From assembly GCA_950295325.1 (NCBI GenBank), contig OX485804.1:38318001-38382000 (forward strand): a stretch of DNA of 64,000 nt, written 5' to 3'. The notes beneath the pieces were generated by a model, which searched no databases, was not told the origin of the DNA, and saw nothing but the letters and a program-made list of their open reading frames with translations. Source of the stretch: Polytrichum commune. Taxonomy: Eukaryota; Streptophyta; Polytrichopsida; Polytrichales; Polytrichaceae. Position numbers and translations under genes: made by a program. Shown here piece after piece: positions 5,240 to 37,560 of this stretch (position 1 is the first letter of the stretch; each line of letters begins with the position of its first letter).

Positions 5240-7180
5240 TCCTTTCACACACTCTGTCCACAGAAATGGATTCCCTATAAGCTTAACTTGTGAAAACAAA
5301 CAACCTAGTCTACCTGGATGATTTCAGAATACATCACCCCCGAGGCAGCTTCGAAAAGCATTTTGTGCACGAGTTGATTGATTCCGCAGAGGCAAGATCA
5401 CAGTTGGAAATACGTCAGTCAAGAAATAAAAGAGGATTTCCACATGAAAGATAAACAGTTTCAATTTGCAGCACACTCTTGGGTTGCAGAATGCCTCCAC
5501 ATATCATTCCAACACGACAAAAAAAATTATGATAGACTGTTCTATTCAAGCAATCGAATTGGTGAGCTTTTCACAAAATGGACAAAGCAAAGTCAAATTC
5601 ATCGTTATAGTGCGCCTGCGAGTAATCCAAAACGGCGATGGAGATAGAAAAGCGAGAATCGTAAACCATTATTTTTAGGGTTGAGTTGATTAGGATGCTC
5701 ACTCAGGAAAGAAGTTCATGCACAGAACTGGAGTCCGTCCCGTGGATTACTTGTTTCCCGTTGTTCACCTTCTCGAAACGACGTCCATTCCGCCGTCCTG
5801 CGCGAACCCTAGGTCTCGAAAATGCAACTTGTTGTGCCTGCCCACGCGTTCGCCCTCGGTCAGTTGAAACTGAGATCTTCTCCGCAGCAGCGCTTCAAGT
5901 GAAGAAACCTATACTAGAGAAAGGGCGATTCTTTTATGCGGGGGTAAGGCATGGTGCTGCAAACTGGGAAGTGCAAATGGGAAAAATGGCGAGGAGACAG
6001 AAGTGCCTCAATCACAATACTCACTTTCAGATCTACGATCTATCATCCAATTGTTTCTCAACAACCAGCCGTTGCAGCCCAATGGAGTCACAAACAGGGT
6101 TGCCTACAGACAAGACTCCTCGTGGTAAGTTTTTGAAAGATCTGAAAGCCGCGTGAGCAAATTAGGAGTGGAAGAATTTTTAAATAGGAGAAAATTAATC
6201 TCAATGGCAAAAGAAACCACGGGATTCTGCCACTGTAATGACAGGGTGACTTAAAGTGCTCACATGCTAATTGTCGCTATATTTAGCACATCCAAAATTA
6301 CTTTACTCCACAGTCTCCAAATCTTCCAAAATACCACACCGACCAAGTACGAGGTTCTCGCCTCTCGCAGGTCAATATTCCGAAAGGAAAAAAGGGATTA
6401 ACCACACAAAACAGAACTCCGCATCCCTCTACCCAATCGCGACCTCTCGCAGCCCCAAAACCTAACGCTCAAACAAAGCTCCAACCCGGGGCTAACGCCT
6501 ATTCCCACTTAACGCTTCCGCACCTGAACCGTGGCACTCTAAAAGAAGCCAGAGAAGAAAATCAACTCAAAGCACATACTACCAGATGCCTGCTCGCAAC
6601 GCTGACGCAGAATTGCTCCTGCTCTCCTGCACCACAAGATCTGCGACCCCCGAACACACCCCCCCCCCCCCTCTGCCTCAAACTGCGCTCAAATTTTCAA
6701 AAAAGGGCTCGTTCTGTCGAAGGACCCTAAACGCGTATTGAATGAGATGCTCATTACTAAGAAGAAGGGGGAGATAGGAGCTGAAACAGGGCAAAAGCGA
6801 AGCAGGAGAGCTATGGCGGGCGGAGAAGTTGCCAAGCGCTGTTGCTCCTTCCCCTGCCATCGCCAGCGATCTCTTCCCGAAACATCATCTACAAACGATG
6901 TACATTCTGGTCATAAATGTATCCCACTGGTACATATTCGGGTTGTAAGAGGGCAAAGGCCCTCATACGTGGCAGCAGGACGTGGATTTCGTACCCAAGG
7001 ACTTACTAATCACCAACTAACGAACTCAATATGCAATTACCTAGTTAGCACAACTACTTAAGCCAAGTTACGCCTACTTTCTTTCATAATTAACCTATTT
7101 AACATACTCAAGCCAACCCAATCCTTCTTGCTTTCGTGCTTAATTAATAAATTAGAGCCTTAAGTGGAATCTAATGAAGG
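5240..7180. other. Upstream region of the galactosyltransferase gene
   Basis: Relatively GC-rich compared with its surroundings, and includes a C14 run at about 6659-6672. It probably holds the promoter and 5' UTR of the minus-strand galactosyltransferase gene. A plus-strand frame at 5686-6156 ends near a donor-like GTAAGT (6124), but it has no recognisable domain and I do not call it a gene. Confidence 0.4.
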
Positions 7181-18516: not shown

Positions 18517-20471
18517 AGAATGTCATTCCATCTACTCCTCCATCTCAGACAACAACTGCTACAACACCAAACTCAAGAACAACTTTCACACAAGACAAGA
18601 AGAAGATAAACTCAAGAGAAGATAAATTTTTTGCTAGAACATGTTGTTGGTAATTCAGGGGCTTTTCTTTCTTCATTCCAGGAATCCACAAATATTCTGA
18701 AGAACATGGACATAAATTTTGCTGCCCTCCTAGAAAAATTCTAACTACTCAATTTCACTATCACTATCACTGTCTATTATAGTTGATTTCTGTCTGAGTT
18801 TGTATTGCCACAAATTTTCTGCCATTAATTCGTGCATTACTATGGCTTCCCGCAGAAGGTCATTTGCCTTCTCGTTTTCTTTTAATAAAAAAAATTTATT
18901 TCTTCATCATTTACTTCATCTGCAATCGGAGCATCTTCGGTGGCTAACATCCTCCTCTTCACTTAAGCAATTCCAGCCTTTTCGCCCCGTAATTCACTAT
19001 CTTCTCATATTTCTCCCTCACCAATCTTTCTACTCAATTTATTTTCTGCCTCTACTATCCAATCTTCTTCTATGCCTTCCTTGTTCACAATACACAAATT
19101 GTGTAACACTATACAAGTGGCTACAATATCCGGCATATTCCGCAAAGATACTTCACATGGCTTCATTATCACCCTCCACCTACCCTTCAATATCCCAAAT
19201 GCCCTCTCTACACACATCCTAGTTGAAGATTGAATGAAATTCCAATTAGCCTCCTTCTCGGATAGTGTTGTCTTCCCGCCCTTAAACGGACAATACATCC
19301 ATGGCCGAACCGGATATGCCGCATCCCTTATAAGTTTGTATGGCTGAAATTTACCTTCTATACATTTACGTCCGATTCTTGTAACTTGAAATACGCTCCA
19401 GTCGTGAAGACTTCCTGCCCACCCAAACTCATAATCCCAAAACATACAATCTGGTCCGACTATTCCTTGTAGAATTGCTGAATGAAATGAATTTCTGCAA
19501 TAATAATCTTGTCCGCCAATTAGAGGGGCTAAAACATGAATATGTGATCCATCTATTGCACCTATGATATAAGGAATGCCGTGTGATTTTTCAAACCTCG
19601 AAGCTAAAACTCTAAACTGTGATTTGCTCGGAATTTGTACAAAAACCGGTTGTAGATGTTTTCTAACCGCTTTATAAACTCCCTCACTACTATTGATAAT
19701 GTACTTTTGTGCACTCCATACAAGTCGCCTATAGTTTGCAATCCATCACCACTTCCCAACCGATGCAATGACATTGCTATCCTATCTTGCACCGGCACCG
19801 TAACCCTAAATTGAGTATTTTTTTTCTTTCAAATACGGACCTAACCTCTCACACAAAAATCTGAATGTATTGTGTGTCACTCGAGTTCGCTTTCTAAATT
19901 CATTCTCCGTCCACAAACCCAACAATAAGCGGTCTACGAATCCGATCATCCGTTCTTGACTCCATATACATCTCTCTCTATACCCCATATTCTCATAAAC
20001 CAAGCTCAAAATTGCTAACTTCTTCCATTCTCCTTGCAAAATCAGCGCTTGAATGTCTACCACATGCTTTACGAGCATGTACAAAAACATGTACAATCCT
20101 AAAAGCAAAACAAATGTGCTCCTCTCCTCCATTGCTTGCTGAAATTTTAGGTTCAAGCAAGCGAAAACTACAAGACAAATGAAGAGAAGAGAAGAGAAGA
20201 GAAGTCAATAGAAGTGAAGAGAATGGTCAAACTTGATTATTTCCAAAAACTGCCTTTTTTTATTATTATTAAAAAAATCAGCACCTCCACTTTTTGGTGC
20301 ATGGTCATTCTTCATGGTCCACATTCGGTTTACACCTAGTGAAGGGCCCATGGACCATGAAAACTAATATTTTAGTAACTCGGACCATGGAAGTCGTCCC
20401 ATGAAGTCGTCCCACGCAAAATAGGCCTCTTACGTGGGACGACTTCATGGTCCATAGTGTAAACCGCCCCT
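18517..20471 (-). mobile_element. PIF/Harbinger DNA transposon, 5' half (Harbinger-2)
   Basis: The right end is GGGGCGGTTTACACTATGGA (reading in from 20471), followed outside by TTA (20472-20474), the expected PIF/Harbinger target. A strong subterminal hairpin (GTCGTCCCACG / CGTGGGACGAC) sits at about 20400-20450. The opposite terminus is missing: similarity to Harbinger-1 stops near 18517, where CACTA sequence begins, so the element is truncated or was cut by rearrangement. Confidence 0.75.
19005..20156 (-). pseudogene. Harbinger transposase (DDE_Tnp_4), nearly intact
   Basis: Encodes a HARBI1-like transposase that would cut and paste the element together with a Myb/SANT-like partner. Reading down the minus strand: N-terminal block 20156-19806, then the helix-turn-helix part (RIAMSLHRLGSGDG...GVHKSTLS) at 19798-19604, then the catalytic core. 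All three DDE residues are present: D in GAIDGSH (19551-19553), D in FGWAGSLHDW (19401-19403) and E in VERAFGILKGRWR (near 19206). Two single-base frame changes break it: one at an A8 run (T8 at 19822-19829 on the plus strand) and one near 19665-19690, after VREFIK. The start could be ATG 20156 or the later ATG at 20132. No separate Myb-like ORF could be supported. Confidence 0.85.
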
Positions 20472-25580: not shown

Positions 25581-26900
25581 GAAATCGGAATGTGGGCAGG
25601 ACTCGAATGCAGCCAACGGCAGATTGCGCTTACGAATCGGTGTGCCCGGACAAGAACCCGAAGCCGCATCAGATCGAGCCCTCAGGTGAGTCCGCATACC
25701 GGAGTGAAATCAGATCGAGCTCATAGGTGATGTGTGCAGGTGAGTCCACACACCAGAGTGAAATCAGATCAAGCTCGAAGATAGGGCTCGCAGGGGAGTT
25801 CGCATTGCGGAACGAATTCAGATCAAGCTCAAAGGTTAAAGCTCGCAAGTAAGTTCGCATACTGGAGTAAATCCAGATCAAACCCACAGGCGAAGCTCGC
25901 AGGTGAGTCTGCATACCAAAGCGAAATCAGATCAAGCCCGCTTGTGAAACTCGCAGGTAAGCCCTATACGAGAGCGAAATCAGATCAAACTCGCAGGAAA
26001 TCGGAGTGTGGGCAGGATTCGAATGCAGCCAACGGAACCAACAGATTGCGCTTACGGATCGGTGTGCCCGGACAAGAGCCCGAAGCCGCATCAGATCGAG
26101 CCCTCAGGTGAGTCCGCATGCCGGAGTGAAATCAGATTGAGCTCATAGGTGATGTGTGCAGGCGAGTTCACACACCAGAGTGAAATCAGATCAAGCTCGC
26201 AGGCATGCTCGCATACCGAAAGCGAAATCAGATCAAGCTCGAAGATAGGGCTCGCAGGTGAGTTCGCATAGCGGAACGAATTCAGATCAAGCTCAAAGGT
26301 TAAAGCTCGCAGGTGAGTTCGCATACTGGAGTAAATTCAGATCAAACCCACAGGCGAAGCTCGTAGGTGAGTCTGCATACCGAAGCGAAATCAGATCAAA
26401 CCCGCTGGTGAAACTCGCAGGTAAGCCCTATACCAGAGCGAAATCAGATCAAACTCGCAGGTAAAGCTCGCAGAGGATCTCGCAGGCGAGCTCGCAGGTC
26501 AAAACAAACCAAGCCCGCAGACAAAGCTCGCAGGTGAGTTTACATACCGGAGCAATATCAGATTTAACACGCAGGTGAAGCTCGCAAGTGAATTTGCACA
26601 AGCTCGCAGGTGAAGTCCCGTAGGGAGATCACACATCGATGTGAAATCAGATCAAGCTCGCAGGTGAAGCTCGCAGACGTGTTCGCAGGTCAAAACGAAT
26701 CAAGCCCACAGACGAAGCCCGCAGAGAAGCTCGCAGGCAAATGCGCATACCGGAGTAAAATCACATTAAGCTCGCAGGTATAGTTCACAGGTGAGCCGCA
26801 TACCGAAGTTGTAGTGGCAGCAAGCTCACAGAGCACACAGCCACACCGAATCACACCCACAACCCGGAACCACAAGAGAGCTCGCATACTGGAATTGAGA
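25581..26900 (+). repeat. 5'-leader tandem array of the LINE
   Basis: A higher-order repeat. 25581-25996 is repeated as 25997 to about 26460 (416-bp period, the second copy carrying a ~46-bp extra monomer). Inside are ~50-60-bp monomers with GCTCGCAGGTGAGTTCGCAT, CCGGAGTGAAATCAGATCAA and variants, continuing less regularly to about 26900. By position this is the 5' UTR/promoter region, comparable in design with monomer arrays of other LINEs. Ten exact CAGGTRAG donor-consensus copies occur in it (see findings). Confidence 0.85.
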
Positions 26901-27088: not shown

Positions 27089-27194
27089 ATGTGTAGTCCC
27101 CAATATACAAATCCATAAGCCTATACTGAGAGCACTGGGGGACTTACACTGTGGAGTTGGAACGCAATGTTGGATTTGTATATTGGGACTACAC
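27089..27194 (+). other. 24-bp-arm hairpin in the LINE 5' UTR
   Basis: GTGTAGTCCCCAATATACAA at 27091 (extending to 27115) is complemented by TGGATTTGTATATTGGGACT at 27171 (extending to 27194), with one unpaired base. The loop is about 55 bases. It sits about 575 bases before the likely ORF1 start. Confidence 0.75.
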
Positions 27195-27768
27195 AAACAC
27201 CAACAAACCGCACTTGCACACACTCTGCCCAAGCAAACCAGGGCATTCAGGATTGACCGGGAGGCCAATTTCGAAGGCACTAGTTCAGTCACCACAGATA
27301 ACCGCGACCAGTGACCATCCAACCCACCGCACCAACATGCAGAGCAACATCGACATTGCAAAGGGTCCACATCAACAAAGAGTCAAGATCATCGACAATT
27401 CATTAACAAGACGACACCACCAACATCAACACACCGACAGCGATAGAAGACAACAACACCCAACAAAAAAGGTAAAACTTCCCCCACAAAGGTACGCTAC
27501 CCCCCCTTGCAAAATTTCCCTTTATTCTCATTCAATAGATAGGAAAGAAAATATAACAACCATAAACACACACCCAAACATACACCTAATACACAAACTC
27601 CTCTTCTACAAAGCCCCACTACACGCGTCAGTGGAAAGAAGAGGAAAAACACCAAAAGAAAACTATAACAACTCTTGTTCAATCCACACATTTGGCTTAA
27701 AACTTCCTACCAAAACAAACAAACCTAACCTAGTAACTACAACTAATGTCATACCTTGCAGAGAAAAG

Positions 27769-29484
27769 ATGACTACACAAGGAGGAGGTAGAGGCGCGGC
27801 TAGGAATCTCACGGAAGATCCCGATTTCATAATGATGGAAGCAAACTCTCCATCCCAAGGGCAGAAGAGGAATGGAGGCAGCAAAGCATCATCAGCGGAG
27901 AAGAGGAACAAAGCATCATCAACGGAAAAGAGAAGCAAATCAACGCCCAAGGACAAAACTCCACCAACACAACATTTCTGGCTAGGATTTGACACAATGG
28001 AGAAGCTGACACTTGAGGAAGGAACATCCGAACTAGCCACAACCCAATCCTCTGCGAAGAAAGGCCGATCGGTAAAAGAAGCAACAGAGCTACTCACATC
28101 GGTATTCTCCTACCCACATGTTGATCAAACTCTTTTCCCACTAGTCCGCCCGGATGGCATAGAGGGACAACATTTCAATATAACCCAACTTCCATTTGAG
28201 GTAGAAACGGACCCAGACACTGGCCTCTCATATGACTATCAGGTAGCCATCTACTTCCAAAAACCAACTCGCCAATACACTCATGAGGAAATCTTAGCAT
28301 TAACACAAGCAAGATTGAAAGATATGAGAATTGCACTAGGGTCTAAGATAGCTGAACCCATTGCAATCCTATGCAAGAATGGTTCTGCAAGGCACTGGTC
28401 AGGTACAATCAAACTACACTTGAAGTACCCCGGGGTAGATGGAATAAACCTACTCAATGGCAGTAGACCATTCATCCTCAATTTGGACACCATTATGACA
28501 ATTGGGAAAGTTTGCAAAAGCTATAACACTATAGCTAGGAACAATATGCTCTCTGTAAAGATCAACAGTCCCTCTCTTGGAAATGTCACGGGGCATGGAC
28601 TTTTCAAAGAAATAGTTGAGGAGAGCTTCAAGAGAGGACAGGAACTAGAGATAACGGGTGTACAGAAAAATACCACTGAAACATGGGCATGGTTGGTGGC
28701 TCCAACTCCTACACAAGCAGAGAAAATTGTGAAGTTCAAGGCTACTTTTCGTAATGAAATTATAGCACCCATCATCAAAACTGGGGAGAGACTATCCTCA
28801 ACTCAATTGGCCAAAAAGAATTGTCTAATGTTGGTTTTGCAAGGATTAAAGCTCACAAAATCAATGGAGGAGACACTACATGAGATCAAGGAGGTTATGG
28901 GGACCAAGAACATCTCCTCTAGCTTCTTCCCAAAGCAACGCGACAACCTACACAATGGGTCAGTCAACATTGAATGCCTCAACCCTACTGTGTACCGTCA
29001 GTTTGTCAATAAGACCCACAAAATCCACAACTCCCACGTTACCTTCACCCCGCACCCAAAGAGCTTGGAAGGAACACTACCACCCTCAGAAGAGCAACAG
29101 AAGCAATTTGGATTTTGTGACATCAACACCGCCCTCGTAAATACCCTCGAAGCCATTCAGAATGCACCAAGCGGCCAAGGGAAGAAACCAAGAGCGGAGA
29201 AAGAAGTCATCATAGAATTCAAAGAAGAATTAAAGATAGAACTGAAGAAAGAGTTGAAAGCTGAGCTCACAATGGAATTCAAAGAAGAGTTGGCAACACA
29301 AAAAGCAGACATCATCACTACAGCAAACACCTACGCCCAAAGACTCGATTCCAACCTGCACGAAATAATGAGAAGGCAAATGACAGAATTTTCCAAAGAG
29401 ATATCATTAGCACTCACGGGTGGAGAAGGAGGACCCGAACTCTTAGCACTCCCACCCCCACCAAGCAACCCGCCAAACATGTGA
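27769..29484 (+). CDS. LINE ORF1 protein, intact
   Basis: A 571-residue intact frame, presumed to be the nucleic-acid-binding ORF1 protein of the retrotransposon. I chose ATG 27769 (MTTQGGGRGA...) because the upstream part of the same open frame (from 27151, with another ATG at 27337) looks like A/C-rich leader. Residues 1-75 are basic and low-complexity (KASSAEKRNK repeats). A folded middle part at about 75-465 contains no zinc knuckle or obvious RRM signature that I recognise. Residues about 472-548 form a charged, probable coiled coil (EFKEELKIELKKELKAEL), typical of ORF1 trimerisation segments. It ends in a proline-rich tail. TGA is at 29482-29484. It is well preserved although ORF2 is not. 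Confidence 0.75.
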   Translation: MTTQGGGRGAARNLTEDPDFIMMEANSPSQGQKRNGGSKASSAEKRNKASSTEKRSKSTPKDKTPPTQHFWLGFDTMEKLTLEEGTSELATTQSSAKKGRSVKEATELLTSVFSYPHVDQTLFPLVRPDGIEGQHFNITQLPFEVETDPDTGLSYDYQVAIYFQKPTRQYTHEEILALTQARLKDMRIALGSKIAEPIAILCKNGSARHWSGTIKLHLKYPGVDGINLLNGSRPFILNLDTIMTIGKVCKSYNTIARNNMLSVKINSPSLGNVTGHGLFKEIVEESFKRGQELEITGVQKNTTETWAWLVAPTPTQAEKIVKFKATFRNEIIAPIIKTGERLSSTQLAKKNCLMLVLQGLKLTKSMEETLHEIKEVMGTKNISSSFFPKQRDNLHNGSVNIECLNPTVYRQFVNKTHKIHNSHVTFTPHPKSLEGTLPPSEEQQKQFGFCDINTALVNTLEAIQNAPSGQGKKPRAEKEVIIEFKEELKIELKKELKAELTMEFKEELATQKADIITTANTYAQRLDSNLHEIMRRQMTEFSKEISLALTGGEGGPELLALPPPPSNPPNM

Positions 29485-31500
29485 GGAAAAACAACCCTAC
29501 AACAACCCCAAAGTCTCTCACTCTAATAATCCCTTACCCAAAAGCATTACTCAATGCTAGCACACCAACACAACAAAAACAAAACCACGAAGTTAGAACA
29601 AAACATCAAAAAAGAACTCAAATAAAAGAAGAAGCATTTCTTAATGCTCTCATACATACCAAACAAAAGAAAGAAAAAAATAGCCATACGCATCAAAATA
29701 GCCTAAAAAACATAAACAATAAACAAAAAGCATTTCTTAATGCCTTTATCCAAACAAAACAAAAACAACCACATCAAAACCAAACAACAAACTCTAACAC
29801 CAATAAACCACGTAAAAAGAAAAACATAACCAAAAAACATCTACCAAAAGCTAAAAACACATACATAATACAAAGGACAATAAAAAAACAAACAAACACA
29901 CTCATAAATACTAACATTACCAACAAGGGGAAATATACAAGGAAAAGGAAAAAAACAACAAACACAAAAACATTCCCAAATACTCCCACACAAAAGCAAA
30001 AGCAAAACATAACCAAACTAATACTGAAACAAAACATAAAAACAACAACTACGACATACCCAAAAACACACAATACCAAACCAACAAACATACAAAACAT
30101 ACAAAACAACAACAAAACTAATACGAGCAACGTAATAACAAAACACACAAATAAATACAAATTGACAAACCCCAAACATCAAAGCGCACATCAAACAACA
30201 AACAAGAAAAACTTTAAAAATAAAACAAAAAACCTAAACCGGGCTCGGCCTACCGGCCTCGCCCAAAACCAAACCAAACAAAAGACTAGGCTTAGAAACT
30301 CAAAAAAAGAAAAAAGAAAAACAACAACAACAAAAGCCCAATATATGACTTCAAACAAACCAACACCCAATCAACTAAATAAAAAAGTAATAACAATAAT
30401 CATAATTCAAACAAAAGAAAATAAAAAAATCCTATCTCAAAGCACACTCAAAACTTAGGCTACTCAAACTGGGGCTACTTGGGTACCCCAAGAAGCCGAA
30501 GTTCAAATTAGGGTTACTTGAAAACCCCAAGCTCAAACTTCGGCTACCTAGGAACCCCAAGTTCAAACTTCGGCTACTTGGGAACCCCAAGAACCCCAAG
30601 TTCAAACTTCGGCTACTTGGGAACCCCAAGAATCCCAAGTTCAAATTGGGGTTACTTGGGAACCCCAAGAACCCCAAGGTCGAAACAAACAAATACCAAC
30701 AAACATACACAAAAAAAAAATACAAACTATATTATGCACAAAACAAAAATACAAGCAAAACACCTCCTATTTAAGATATGTAGAGACATTGATGTTAAAA
30801 CAATAACACAACATAAAAACAAAATAATAATAATAATAATAATACAAAAAACAAACCCAATAAACCTAAAACAAACAAAAACCCCAAATAACAATAAAGA
30901 GGAAGCATTTCCTAATATTCACACACAAATAAAACCAAAAAACCAAAAATACAAAATATATAGCCCCAAGCATCAAAACAAAAAACAAAAAACAAAACAA
31001 AATATAAAACCTCACCAAAAACAAACATACACTTTACAAACAAACACAAGAAAAAGTTAAACATAACCAAAAAACACCTCCAGAAAGCTAAAAACACATA
31101 CAAAAAACCAAAACCATACAAAACACAAAAGACAATAAAGAAACAAACAAACACACCACACACCAATCCAAAAACAACAAACCACAACATCACCCCACCC
31201 ATCTCAAAGAATTTTCCAAAACACCAAAACAAAAAACAACAACATATAATCCATAAAAACCACCTAAAACAGGCTCGGCCTACCGGCCTCGCCCAAAACC
31301 AGAAAAACAAAATAAGAAAAAGGAACCAATACAAAACCACGCATACCAAACAAACACAAATAAGAACCATAAAACATCCAAGCCACATAACAAACCTAGA
31401 CTATAAAATAACAAATACTAAAAATACTAAAAAAAAACGGTACACAACCTACAAAGAACAACCAAACCTTCTCATTATCCAAGCATTCTCCTTACACTTA
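29485..31500 (+). other. ORF1-ORF2 linker, A/C-rich, internally repeated
   Basis: About 2 kb with almost no T. Long frames cover it: frame 3 up to 30458, frame 2 to 31060, and frame 1 open from 30964 onward into ORF2. The block GAAGCATTTCYTAATGCTC recurs at 29540, 29631, 29731 and (variant) 30901. GCTCGGCCTACCGGCCTCGC recurs at 30243 and 31272, and ACCAAAAAACAYCTMCMRAA at about 29830 and 31065. The linker thus contains two diverged copies of a module. Frames read the second block as ARPTGLAQNQ both times. It may be low-complexity coding sequence or just T-poor RNA. Confidence 0.55.
30455..30690 (+). repeat. In-frame minisatellite, 30/39-bp units (GYLGTP repeats)
   Basis: About seven units such as AACTTCGGCTACTTGGGAAC plus CCCAAGAACCCCAAG. 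Unit lengths are 30 or 39 bp, all multiples of three, encoding N(F/W)GYLGTP(RTP)SS in frame 2. The third unit has TAG where others have TTC. Each unit contains the near-palindrome CTTGGGAACCCCAAG. Confidence 0.8.
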
Positions 31501-31542
31501 CTACTTTTACTTAGCGGAGACATTGAAACCAATCCAGGACCC
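31477..31542 (+). other. 2A-like ribosome-skipping motif after a hydrophobic run
   Basis: Frame 1 reads QAFSLHLLLLLS then GDIETNPGP (31516-31542), followed at once by Met. This fits the 2A consensus D(V/I)ExNPGP exactly. In known 2A sequences the ribosome fails to form the Gly-Pro bond (here between 31539 and 31540) and continues, releasing two proteins from one frame. The preceding Leu-rich stretch resembles the helix or signal-like segment seen in 2A elements of trypanosome and animal LINEs. Function here is inference from the motif. Confidence 0.85.
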
Positions 31543-32169
31543 ATGCCCAATATCCTACAAACACACCCATCCACACATAGAAACAGATGCAAAAAATACT
31601 TTATAGAATGCACAATCAAATTACAACCAGAATACCAACACTTAGCAAAACAATTTTCCCCTATCATAAACCTAACACACCCAAAACACCAAGACACAAT
31701 TATAAACTATCCATACCTATCAAGATATATCTACAAAAATCAACACCATCCATCACCACATGTATTGTACGCACTTATTACCATAATTAGCCCAGTCATA
31801 GAGACATGCAACCATATACTAATACAAACCCCAGAACCCGATTGGACAACAACAATTTTAGAGCATATGGCCTCACTCCAAAACCCACCCGAAAGACACA
31901 TTACACCCACGTACCCATACACACAATTCATACAAACAAACCAAGACATTATCAACCCACCCAACACCATCCACAAAAAACTATACACCTTCATCCAACA
32001 AAGCAATGCACCACTAACCATACAGATTATGACTGACAAATTCCCTTATTTACCAGAAAAATTACTTACAGAATCCTTAAAATGCAAAGAGCCCCTACAT
32101 GAATACTCCTACCCCTCACCACTACCCAACATACCCACGATACGCCCCCAAGCAAACCAAACAACAAAT

Positions 32170-32945
32170 CACAGCATACACATAATCACATGGAATGCCT
32201 CCTTACTAAACACAGCCCTACCAAATCTCCACCAACTCATATCAAATACACCAAACAACCCGACAATTATCACCAAACAAGAAACCAAATTAACCGCAAC
32301 AAAATCCACAAAATACATACAATATCTATTCCCACAATATAAACTAATATTTAACAATACACATACACTAACAAGATGTATACAACAAAGAATGCCATAT
32401 ACACCTACAAGAGGTGGACTCCTTACACTCATAAACAAAATATACGCATACTCAGGCAACATCACTAAAATTCCCACCCCAACTGCAATATCACCATACC
32501 TACAAATAACAGAAATAAATAACCAACCTCTACAACCATGGTTAATAATACACATCTACATGTCATCACACGAAGAAGATACCAGATTAATACCAATAAT
32601 ACAACAAAACATAATACAACAAACCACTAATCATCCAAACCACATACACATTCTATGCGGAGACTTCAACAGAGACATAGCCCTCATTGGACGTCAAAAC
32701 GAATACATCACAACACCACCACAAGTAGAAGATATAGAATGGCGTACATTTGTAAACAGTCTCCAACTCACATACATTCCCACGAATAGCTCATACTCTA
32801 GACAAGGTGGTCAAAACTATAATCAAACTAGCTTAATAGATGGATACTACATTAAAACACCCAATAACAACCTATACACATCAACAACAAATAATGCCCA
32901 CAACCTTAACTCAGACCATTCCCCAGTAACACTACATATCCCACC
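32170..32945 (+). pseudogene. ORF2 domain: APE-type endonuclease
   Basis: An uninterrupted stretch with the exonuclease-endonuclease-phosphatase motifs in order: ITWNA near 32190, TKQETK near 32272 (metal-binding Glu), GDFNRD near 32657, SLIDGYY near 32830, and SDHSPV from 32911 (catalytic Asp-His). In LINEs this domain nicks the target for target-primed reverse transcription. About 200 unassigned residues separate it from the 2A site. Confidence 0.9.
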
Positions 32946-33788
32946 AAATACACTACTAGCCTGCTGCATGCCACCAATAGAAAATAAACCCCAAGGATAT
33001 TAAACCCTATCCCACAGATAAATATTGACAAATTCAAAACAGAATTCTTTGAAGAAAATGCACTCCATATAAATAAACTTACAAACATGCTAAAAAACGA
33101 CCAAATAACAAACGACGAATGACAATCATCATGTACAAAACTAGACCACCTAATACAAAAGATTTCTGACAAAATTCAAGACACGTGCAGTGCACCACCA
33201 CTCCTAGATCTTACAAATCGTACGACACAACAAGGAGGCTTTCTACCAAGAAAACTCCAAAAAAAATGGAAAAATCACCTTTCCACCTACCCGTCTAATC
33301 AGGAAAGCAATTTACCGCATAAAAAATTCACCAAATTGGCCAACACACCCAATAATAGAAGAGCTAAAAAACCATACCCAAGTTGCTATCCCACCCCCCC
33401 AAACCAAGAACCTAATCAACAAGAATGGATAAAAACATTAGCTCAAATAGCCAAAACCGCAAATATACATGCTCGCAAAATTACTACAAAATACACCCAA
33501 GAATGTATCAAAAAAGTAATATCCAAATATAGGCAACTATATGAATTAAGCCCAAAGAAAATTAACAAAATAGTCTTTAAAAACCAAGAAACACCTCCAC
33601 TTGATTGCATTACAGATAAACACAACAATATACTTACAAACCCTGCAGACATAGCCAATGAAATATACAATTAGCAGTCAATTAGTAATAGACCAAAAGT
33701 ACCAACATGCCACTACCAACCAGAACACACACCAAAATGCACTTGTGAAGTAAGACAATACCCATGGCATGATCTAGATGGGTTTGTT

Positions 33789-35599: not shown

Positions 35600-36732
35600 A
35601 CAACTATTCTGTCACCCAAGCTGTAACCAAAACTGCCCCAATCCATGTAATAGACACCCACAAATCCGTATACTCAGAACAAAATACATATCAAACAATA
35701 GAGAACTAACACCCATAATACCGAACAACCCCTTACACCCACCACCACAACAAATACAACACCCCAATTCACCCTCCAACATAAAAAATAATCCACTCCG
35801 ATACCCCATACACACTATACTCAATCACAAATCAAATGAAACAAAAGACAAATATAAAATAACAAGAAAATACACCACATATCTATGTCAATGGTCACTA
35901 CTAAACAATATAACATATAACAAATGGTTGCCACAAAGCGAATTATTCCCGCTAAACCACCCCCCAGTAATTGAACATAACATTAAACTACTAAAAGAAT
36001 ACTACACCAGACACCAACACAATTACTATAATAACATTGTACACACACATCTCATTCCTGCACAATCCAAAGATCCAAGATTCATACCAGAGCCAACAAT
36101 AATACCACACTTTCAAATCTCAATCAAAGAATGCAACCCAGAAAAAGACATTACCACTACGACAAACACTATACAAACACAAAATGAATTAGCACATATA
36201 TATGAAGACACTGGAAGACACCTCATCACCATCCCAACCACCAGACTGAAATGGTTATGGCAGCAATACAACAAAGACAAGTACAACACACGTGGCCTAG
36301 TACCTCCTACACAACCATTTGAAACAGAAGTGTATGGCTCTACCAAAGGTACAACTATAAAATACCAAAAAAATACCCACTAAAAGCATCACACCACACT
36401 CCCACAAAATCTCCTTGATTCTATCACAAAAACATTCAACATCACACATTCATACTTCTCCTCATCAGTAACATGCTCTATACACATTACACAATACTAC
36501 TCCCCATTTGCAAGAGACAAAATCTTCGGATCACTTGGCACCGCCTTCCAATATAAATGGACTGGAATTGGCTACGCCCACCCACACAATGAGGAAACAT
36601 CGCACCAAGCAATTCACTGGGCCAGACTAGCAGCTAAGAATGACTCAAACACCATTACACTACTAGTCATCCCAGACACCAATTGGTATCAAAACCACTC
36701 ACCACTCACCACATACTGGGCCATTCCTTGAC
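35600..36732 (+). pseudogene. ORF2: CxxxC cluster and unassigned region
   Basis: Frame 3 reads four cysteines spaced C-x3-C-x3-C-x3-C (35610, 35622, 35634, 35646), a possible zinc site, then about 350 residues with no family I can name, interrupted by TAA at 36381. The later part contains SPFARDKIFGSLGTAFQYKW and IHWARLAAKNDSNTITLLVI, which look like a folded domain. Its position between RT and RNase H is unusual. Confidence 0.5.
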
Positions 36733-37089: not shown

Positions 37090-37560
37090 TACATCTACTA
37101 CACAGATGGCTCCTTCGTCCCACCCAGACAAAACACTGACAGACACTGGAAAAAAGAAAAAGTTGGCTACGGAATCTACAACCTCACAAAAGAAGAAATA
37201 CAAATATAAAAAAGACTACCTGGACTTCAAACCAGTTTCAGGGCCGAACTAATGGCCATACATAAAACGCTCAGAATAATCACCACCAAATACCCGAATG
37301 AACCAGCACATATATTCACGGACTGCCTAAACTGTCTATACGTACTTAATACACAAATAAAACATCCTACCCACCATAACAACCATGCTAACAAAACCAT
37401 ATTAACATCTATGGTAGAAATGTTAAAAAACTGAACACAACCCACTACGCTATATAAAGTAAAAGCCCACACAAACATTGGTGGAAATGAACAAGCAGAC
37501 CAACTAGCAAAACATGGCATAAAAAAGAGATATAGATTCACGGCCAAATCATACGAATTC
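37090..37560 (+). pseudogene. ORF2 domain: RNase H
   Basis: The four expected acidic/His blocks are present: YYTDGSF (Asp 37105), FRAELMAIHK (Glu 37246), FTDCLN (Asp 37321) and KVKAHTNIGGNEQADQLAK (His and Asp, near 37459-37510). Stops at 37207 and 37432 break it. It would remove the RNA strand during cDNA synthesis. Confidence 0.85.

Follow-up and report, generated by a model that had tools for sequence, protein, structure and literature searches.

A putative 2A (StopGo) peptide within ORF2 of a large APE-type LINE family in a moss-like plant

A 2A-like peptide lies inside ORF2 of a moss-like plant LINE family

Here we describe a large family of APE-type LINEs from a moss-like plant in which ORF2 contains, in hundreds of copies, what appears to be a genuine 2A (StopGo) peptide, placed so that it would release a leader from the enzyme that follows. 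Judging from sequence, we put the probability of this reading at about 0.85. That skipping takes place in the plant, how efficiently it does so, how ORF2 translation is initiated and what role the leader plays are all inferred. The window, by which we mean the whole 64,000-nt stretch of DNA that was analyzed, contains a copy of this element with the following features:

27130..29484 (+): ORF1, a stop-to-stop frame of 784 aa, function unknown
29265..30458 (+): first linker part, read in the -1 frame relative to ORF1 (220 nt shared) and in a different frame from the part at 30964
30459..30963 (+): stretch interrupting the linker, with minisatellite-like repeats and no reading frame free of stops
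30964..31476 (+): remainder of the linker, sharing the 2A frame and lacking an in-frame Met
31477-31542 (+): putative 2A/StopGo peptide, which translates as IQAFSLHLLLLLSGDIETNPGP
31519-31542 (+): core octapeptide DIETNPGP, within the 2A peptide
Between Gly 31537-31539 and Pro 31540-31542 (+): predicted skip site
31543..31545 (+): Met right after NPGP, a possible back-up start codon in a weak context
31543..32184 (+): conserved stretch from the 2A to the endonuclease; with the final Pro of NPGP, the query used to collect copies
32185..32928 (+): APE-type endonuclease; Exo_endo_phos and Exo_endo_phos_2 fall below their curated cut-offs here and above them in copy L001
34038..34673 (+): reverse transcriptase (RVT_1), in two pieces split by a stop, both above cut-off
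36384..36728 (+): PCIF1-like domain between reverse transcriptase and RNase H; PCIF1_WW at 35.2 bits, cut-off 31.1
37450..37521 (+): end of the RNase H domain, below cut-off here; 58.3 bits in copy L002
37558..38547 (+): conserved C-terminal domain with a Cys/His cluster and PD...E, placed by alignment

The window octapeptide satisfies the 2A core pattern (D/G/C/N)(V/I)ExNPGP, and a recognized 2A upstream context is present, with LLLLSG in the window and a Gly just before Asp12. The initial annotation had pointed to GDIETNPGP at 31477-31542 as a 2A consensus with a Leu-rich run, and both the coordinates and the translation proved exact. It had also placed the motif just before the endonuclease. 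The Leu-rich run ahead of the motif is indeed there, but the Pfam match to the endonuclease begins ~215 residues later, at ~32185, so the motif is not adjacent to that domain. Both lie within a single open frame at 30964-33003 (+), which is shared by the 2A and the APE endonuclease match. Among the 2A motifs of the family as a whole are LLLLLSGDIETNPGP in the group that includes the window copy and LELLKCGDIEPNPGP in a separate group. Here and below, "group" and "lineage" refer to shared motifs (plus sequence identity in the case of copies L003 and L005), with no tree behind the terms.

The motif recurs across the genome

To look for further occurrences, back-translated patterns were searched across the 408-Mb assembly, with the reversed pattern as a control, and copies were cut from seven contigs of 42-78 Mb. 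GDIE(T/S-type)NPGP was found at 115 genome places, GDIExNPGP followed by Met-Pro at 196, G-x4-NPGP-Met-Pro at 259 and DIE-x4-Pro-Met-Pro-Asn at 195; the control gave 0 in each case. These numbers bear directly on whether the motif could be a chance match inside a decayed repeat. Stops and frame changes disrupt ORF2 of the window copy, which is therefore decayed, as such an explanation would have it. However, the motif pattern matched 196 places and its reversal none, so the motif cannot be put down to chance. We regard this explanation as refuted, with a negligible probability remaining: the 115 and 196 places, each against a control of 0, and the survey of copies described next together exclude a chance origin.

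A second set of copies was collected independently of the motif, using a 221-residue query that starts at the final Pro of NPGP. From 729 candidates, 150 rows were scored, and the 104 copies that we examined are the best-scoring 104 of these 150, so they are biased toward relatives of the window copy. The inclusion of the final Pro of NPGP in the query is a further caveat on all counts from this set. In these 104 copies, the in-frame motif is the canonical octapeptide in 79, a His16 variant in 2, a Lys14 variant in 7 (two of which carry an additional change) and otherwise changed in 13, with the frame or junction disturbed in the remaining 3. Thus, 23 of the 104 sampled copies deviate from the canonical or His16 motif. 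The disturbed copies comprise one that is frameshifted (L024), one with its motif ~1 kb away (L035) and one with an altered junction (L092); the first two retain an intact motif, out of frame or ~1 kb off. Copies that lack the motif while keeping its neighboring residues had been named beforehand as an outcome that would refute the 2A reading. Sought in these 104 downstream-selected copies, of which 79 are canonical and 2 carry His16, they leave that reading supported.

The peptide and its upstream frame appear to be under selection

We then considered how conservation is distributed along the motif. Across the 104 copies, the fixed core positions are conserved at 90-97%, compared to 50% at the free x15 position, and among the eight core residues only this free "x" varies. 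Gly11 is present in 95% of copies with a Leu-rich stretch ahead of it, and conservation climbs at this Leu-rich run. Third codon positions are variable at most core residues (P17, for example, is encoded by CCG, CCC, CCA or CCT). The Glu14 codon is almost invariant, with GAA in 92 of 93.

We calculated pN/pS from pairs of copies with at least 70% upstream identity and at most 97% downstream identity, excluding L024, L035, L092 and the duplicates L075 and L081 and adding L003 and L005. The resulting 611 pairs are not independent. Within the 2A, pN/pS is 0.17; downstream of it the values are 0.15 and 0.23, and for the interval of 15-60 codons on the upstream side they are 0.34 and 0.47. Beyond 60 codons upstream it reaches 0.96, from an ungapped alignment that is unreliable there, and this value could arise from misalignment or from absent constraint.

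The frame upstream of the motif is also preferentially open. Within the 90 codons preceding the 2A in 101 copies, there are 61 stops in the 2A frame versus 606 and 637 in the other two, and 75 of the 101 copies are free of stops over this distance in the 2A frame versus 1 and 1 in the others. Five long copies have 852-2748 nt (284-916 codons) of open sequence ahead of the 2A; going by composition, 15-39 stops would be expected per frame over these lengths, and 19-56 are present in the other frames. The absence of 2A-frame stops from these stretches follows from how they are defined, whereas the 101-copy count involves no such selection. Four of the five long copies were picked for their long open frames, two (L003 and L005) are near-identical, and the linker of L005 contains an in-frame stop at a more upstream position. 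The motif had been annotated at the head of ORF2, and these open upstream codons in the same frame show that it is not. They also rule out an N-terminal 2A signal sequence of the SpNLR type for these five copies, although the true start codon is not known.

Together, purifying selection and the open upstream frame support a function at the peptide level. The 2A is in frame with coding sequence on both sides and under peptide-level selection, as far as sequence evidence alone can tell; the simplest reading is that translation begins far ahead of the motif, which is retained for the peptide it encodes.

Possible routes of ORF2 expression

How ribosomes reach this frame is less clear. No classical slippery heptamer for -1 frameshifting was found in the ORF1 frame of the ORF1-ORF2 overlap in the six copies inspected, leaving -1 frameshifting unsupported as a means of entering ORF2. 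The first ORF2-frame ATG lies 5 nt before the ORF1 stop codon in L003 and L005 and 36-123 nt after it in L009, L001 and L007; the window copy has no ORF2-frame ATG within 150 nt of the ORF1 stop. Given the lack of a heptamer in six overlaps and the nearby ATG in five of the six copies, entry into ORF2 near the ORF1 stop is most likely, and re-initiation as the way in is a guess. Reading back from the motif, 58 of 101 copies have no in-frame Met before a stop or the end of the ~110 codons retrieved is reached, so the mode of entry into the linker is not shown.

If the motif acts as a 2A, we envisage that ribosomes would enter ORF2 near the ORF1 stop and translate the basic, low-complexity linker first (~280-900 residues). 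The hydrophobic segment (LLLLLSG or LxLLxCG) and GDIExNPG would then occupy the exit tunnel, the linker would be let go at the final Gly with no stop codon involved, and the ribosome would continue from the Pro. The separate enzyme would consist of the conserved N-terminal stretch, APE, reverse transcriptase, the PCIF1-like domain, RNase H and the C-terminal domain. In copies of the His14 group described below, the signal is repeated two or three times, and extra short peptides would be released.

The codon following NPGP is ATG in 100 of 101 copies, as would be expected if the enzyme instead started at this codon, internally or by re-initiation, making GDIExNPGP fortuitous or a leftover of the upstream frame. 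The upstream motifs of the tandem copies inspected have no Met after them, which sets the Met apart from the 2A proper and fits a start at this codon, as does the movement of a lineage carrying Lys14 (both described below). However, the ATG sits in a weak context (positions -3 and +4 are each C in 99 of 100), in the long copies it lies several kilobases into the mRNA, and such a start leaves unexplained both the selection at the amino-acid level before the ATG and the open upstream frame. We consider it improbable that this start accounts for the motif, though it may operate beside the 2A as a back-up.

Position-14 and position-16 variants and tandem motifs

Several variants of the motif recur in the genome. 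GDIHxNPGP is found at 68 places (control 0) and GDIKxNPGP-Met-Pro at 14, and GDIEPHPGP occurs in 2 of the 104 copies, with DIE(P/S)HPGP at at least 7 places among the matches listed. The available part of a recent survey reports that His14, His16 and Asn12 variants of 2A are active in rabbit reticulocyte lysate and cites a Gln14 change as partly active (PMC12846837).

Among the matches listed, all 11 His14 copies carry a further motif upstream. One of these (L113) has three motifs in one open frame; in the other 10, the upstream motif is in the same open frame in 6, in frame past a stop in 2 and in another frame in 2. By comparison, none of 10 Glu14 copies picked from several subtypes has an extra upstream motif. 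The upstream tandem motifs often carry Gln14. We also inspected 11 loci, most of them picked for neighboring GDIHxNPGP matches or as GDIE(T/S-type)NPGP places missing from the GDIExNPGP-Met-Pro set. In five (L110, L112, L113, L114 and L118), a single open frame holds two or more motifs; two have more than one motif in broken frames (L111 and L115) and four have a single motif. Across 12 multi-motif copies, a set that omitted L111, L114, L115, L124 and L128, pN/pS is 0.12 for the endonuclease-proximal 2A, 0.33 for the upstream 2A core and 0.80 for the spacer between them.

These variants help in weighing whether linker and enzyme might remain an uncleaved fusion, in which the motif is merely a conserved element (a hydrophobic docking segment, for instance) that matches 2A by coincidence. 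Conservation and frame cannot separate cleavage from fusion, and Lys14 copies would simply be fusions. Yet a coincidental match would have to hold the fixed 2A positions while leaving x15 free, to recur as His14 and His16, the very variants reported active, and to repeat the same pattern in tandem while the spacers otherwise diverge. We find this very improbable, and favor a functional 2A.

The Lys14 variants suggest a limit to the role of such a 2A. L003 and L005, which lie on different contigs and both have GDIKPNPGP, share 99.66% identity across 13.1 kb, indicating that a lineage without Glu14 has moved and, hence, that the canonical motif is not strictly indispensable. Both have long open frames, and their 3′ flanks differ beyond the CTAT tail; the 5′ end was not reached in L003. 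Lys14 is not among the variants reported as active in the part of PMC12846837 available to us, and the canonical signal may thus be dispensable. In Lys14 copies, skipping is likely lost or weak, offset by the fused protein itself, by use of the Met that follows or by a helper element.

A broader proposal is that natural StopGo is established and has diversified in a land plant, with the ORF2 polyprotein cut once in the window group or two to three times in the His14 group, and with E, H, Q or K at position 14 setting the ratio of fused to free enzyme. For this we see the odds as even.

Element architecture and host

The initial annotation had called the element a plant LINE, and this is borne out by the presence of APE and reverse transcriptase in one ORF and of LEAFY-type genes in the host. 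In L001, Exo_endo_phos, Exo_endo_phos_2 and RVT_1 all score above cut-off within one ORF, as is required of an APE-type LINE, and L003 and L005 provide the dispersed near-identical copies with separate flanks expected of a LINE. Among solved structures, the reverse transcriptase is nearest to that of R2 (phmmer against PDB). ORF1 of the window copy matches no Pfam family up to an E-value of 0.1, and none above cut-off. Within the linker, the interrupting stretch at 30459..30963 has tandem repeats at 30463-30686, and we infer that it is an insertion in the window copy.

A GC-rich segment, GGCTCGGCCTACCGGCCTCGCC, occurs twice in the otherwise A/C-rich linker of the window copy (30242-30263 and 31272-31293). 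It encodes ARPTGLA, a peptide that recurs in L001 and L009, and the segment could form a hairpin. A degenerate array of ~54 bp repeats occupies 25620-26800 of the window, directly upstream of the LINE ORF1. The L003 and L005 copies end in a CTAT microsatellite tail rather than poly(A) (L004 3081-3096; L005 79-94, minus strand). From position 5259 on, L003 is 87% identical to L007/L008 in ORF2, from within the linker onward, and has no megablast match before this position, a pattern that a swap of ORF1 and the early linker would give.

PCIF1 is a family of cap adenosine methyltransferases in which the NPPF motif has a catalytic role. The PCIF1-like domain spans residues 197-326 in L002 (49 bits), and there are 698 candidate places for it in the genome, 150 of which were scored. 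The residues aligned to NPPF read HPPN in L001 and L002 and HPHN in L003, L005 and L007, and with this replacement PCIF1-like catalysis may be lost. The C-terminal domain is marked by the patterns CxxC...H...C, RHN and PD...E, and resembles a restriction-like endonuclease (RLE) by eye only. It has no PDB profile match, and the L005 copy has no Pfam match; its AlphaFold model is of low confidence (mean pLDDT 38).

SAM_LFY, the LEAFY-type domain, is found at four genome places, all above cut-off. At one of these loci the sequence is INKPKMRDYVHC; it has Asp, the moss-type residue, at a site where His is usual in land plants. The host is thus a land plant or a near relative, and probably a moss. 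Searches for SAM_LFY and for the PCIF1-like domain gave zero matches in 14 control genomes; these are apparently not from plants, so the result carries little weight. A neighboring ORF in the window combines DUF4094 with a galactosyltransferase domain, a plant pairing. The window also includes a transposase fragment at 19008-19745 (-) matching DDE_Tnp_4 and Plant_tran, presumably of the Harbinger type.

Comparison with known 2A systems

Literature on 2A together with plants or retrotransposons, represented mostly by titles and the opening parts of abstracts, yielded no natural case in a land-plant LINE. Odon 2013 and Rao 2025 were not covered, leaving priority open; Rao 2025 searched viral and cellular proteomes, according to the available part of PMC12846837. 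That same part of this 2026 survey finds no natural StopGo in plant viruses and describes its use by cells as rare. In plant cells, 2A is functional as a tool in artificial constructs, as stated in the accessible portion of PMC4981915. If our reading is right, plant ribosomes have been reading such signals in evolution, and the family supplies 2A sequences of plant origin. Its tandem motifs and position-14 variants offer material for studying how skipping efficiency is tuned, and the finding raises the question of how LINE ORF2 is expressed in plants.

In overall layout, the element resembles the Dualen/RandI LINEs, which combine APE, reverse transcriptase and RNase H in one ORF, and its C-terminal domain with Cys/His cluster and PD has a by-eye likeness to an RLE (PMC4640811 and PMC8226300, from the parts available). 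Those parts make no mention of a PCIF1-like domain or a 2A. If the C-terminal domain is an RLE, this would perhaps be a dual-endonuclease, Dualen-like LINE in a land plant, although membership is not established and the likeness is by eye only.

Sea-urchin NLR 2A signal sequences, as presented in the available text of PMC4981915, likewise have a hydrophobic run followed by a 2A, and a failed skip would leave the hydrophobic segment on the product. Those 2As are N-terminal, in contrast to the LINE described here, whose long copies have hundreds of open codons before the motif. In viral StopGo, LLLLSG-like upstream motifs with Asp12 have been described (L-rich motifs 2 and 6 in the accessible sections of PMC12846837). 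The window motif shares with these LLLLSG followed by DIETNPGP, Gly at position 11 and Asp at position 12, and Thr at position 15 is among the common residues there. The viral LLLLSG type is, according to the same sections, linked to Ser at position 15, whereas the window motif is non-viral and has Thr.

Finally, 2A/StopGo peptides are known from APE-type LINEs of multicellular organisms and from the trypanosome L1Tc (Odon 2013 and Heras 2006, as cited in the available parts of PMC4981915, PMC11512398 and PMC12846837). To judge from those parts, the LINE described here shares with them D(V/I)ExNPGP, a suitable upstream context and a place in the coding frame of a non-LTR element. Set against these known LINE 2As, and with their presence in earlier elements unchecked, its own features are a plant host, a long linker before the motif, tandem motifs, His14 and Gln14 in one group and a Met kept after NPGP.
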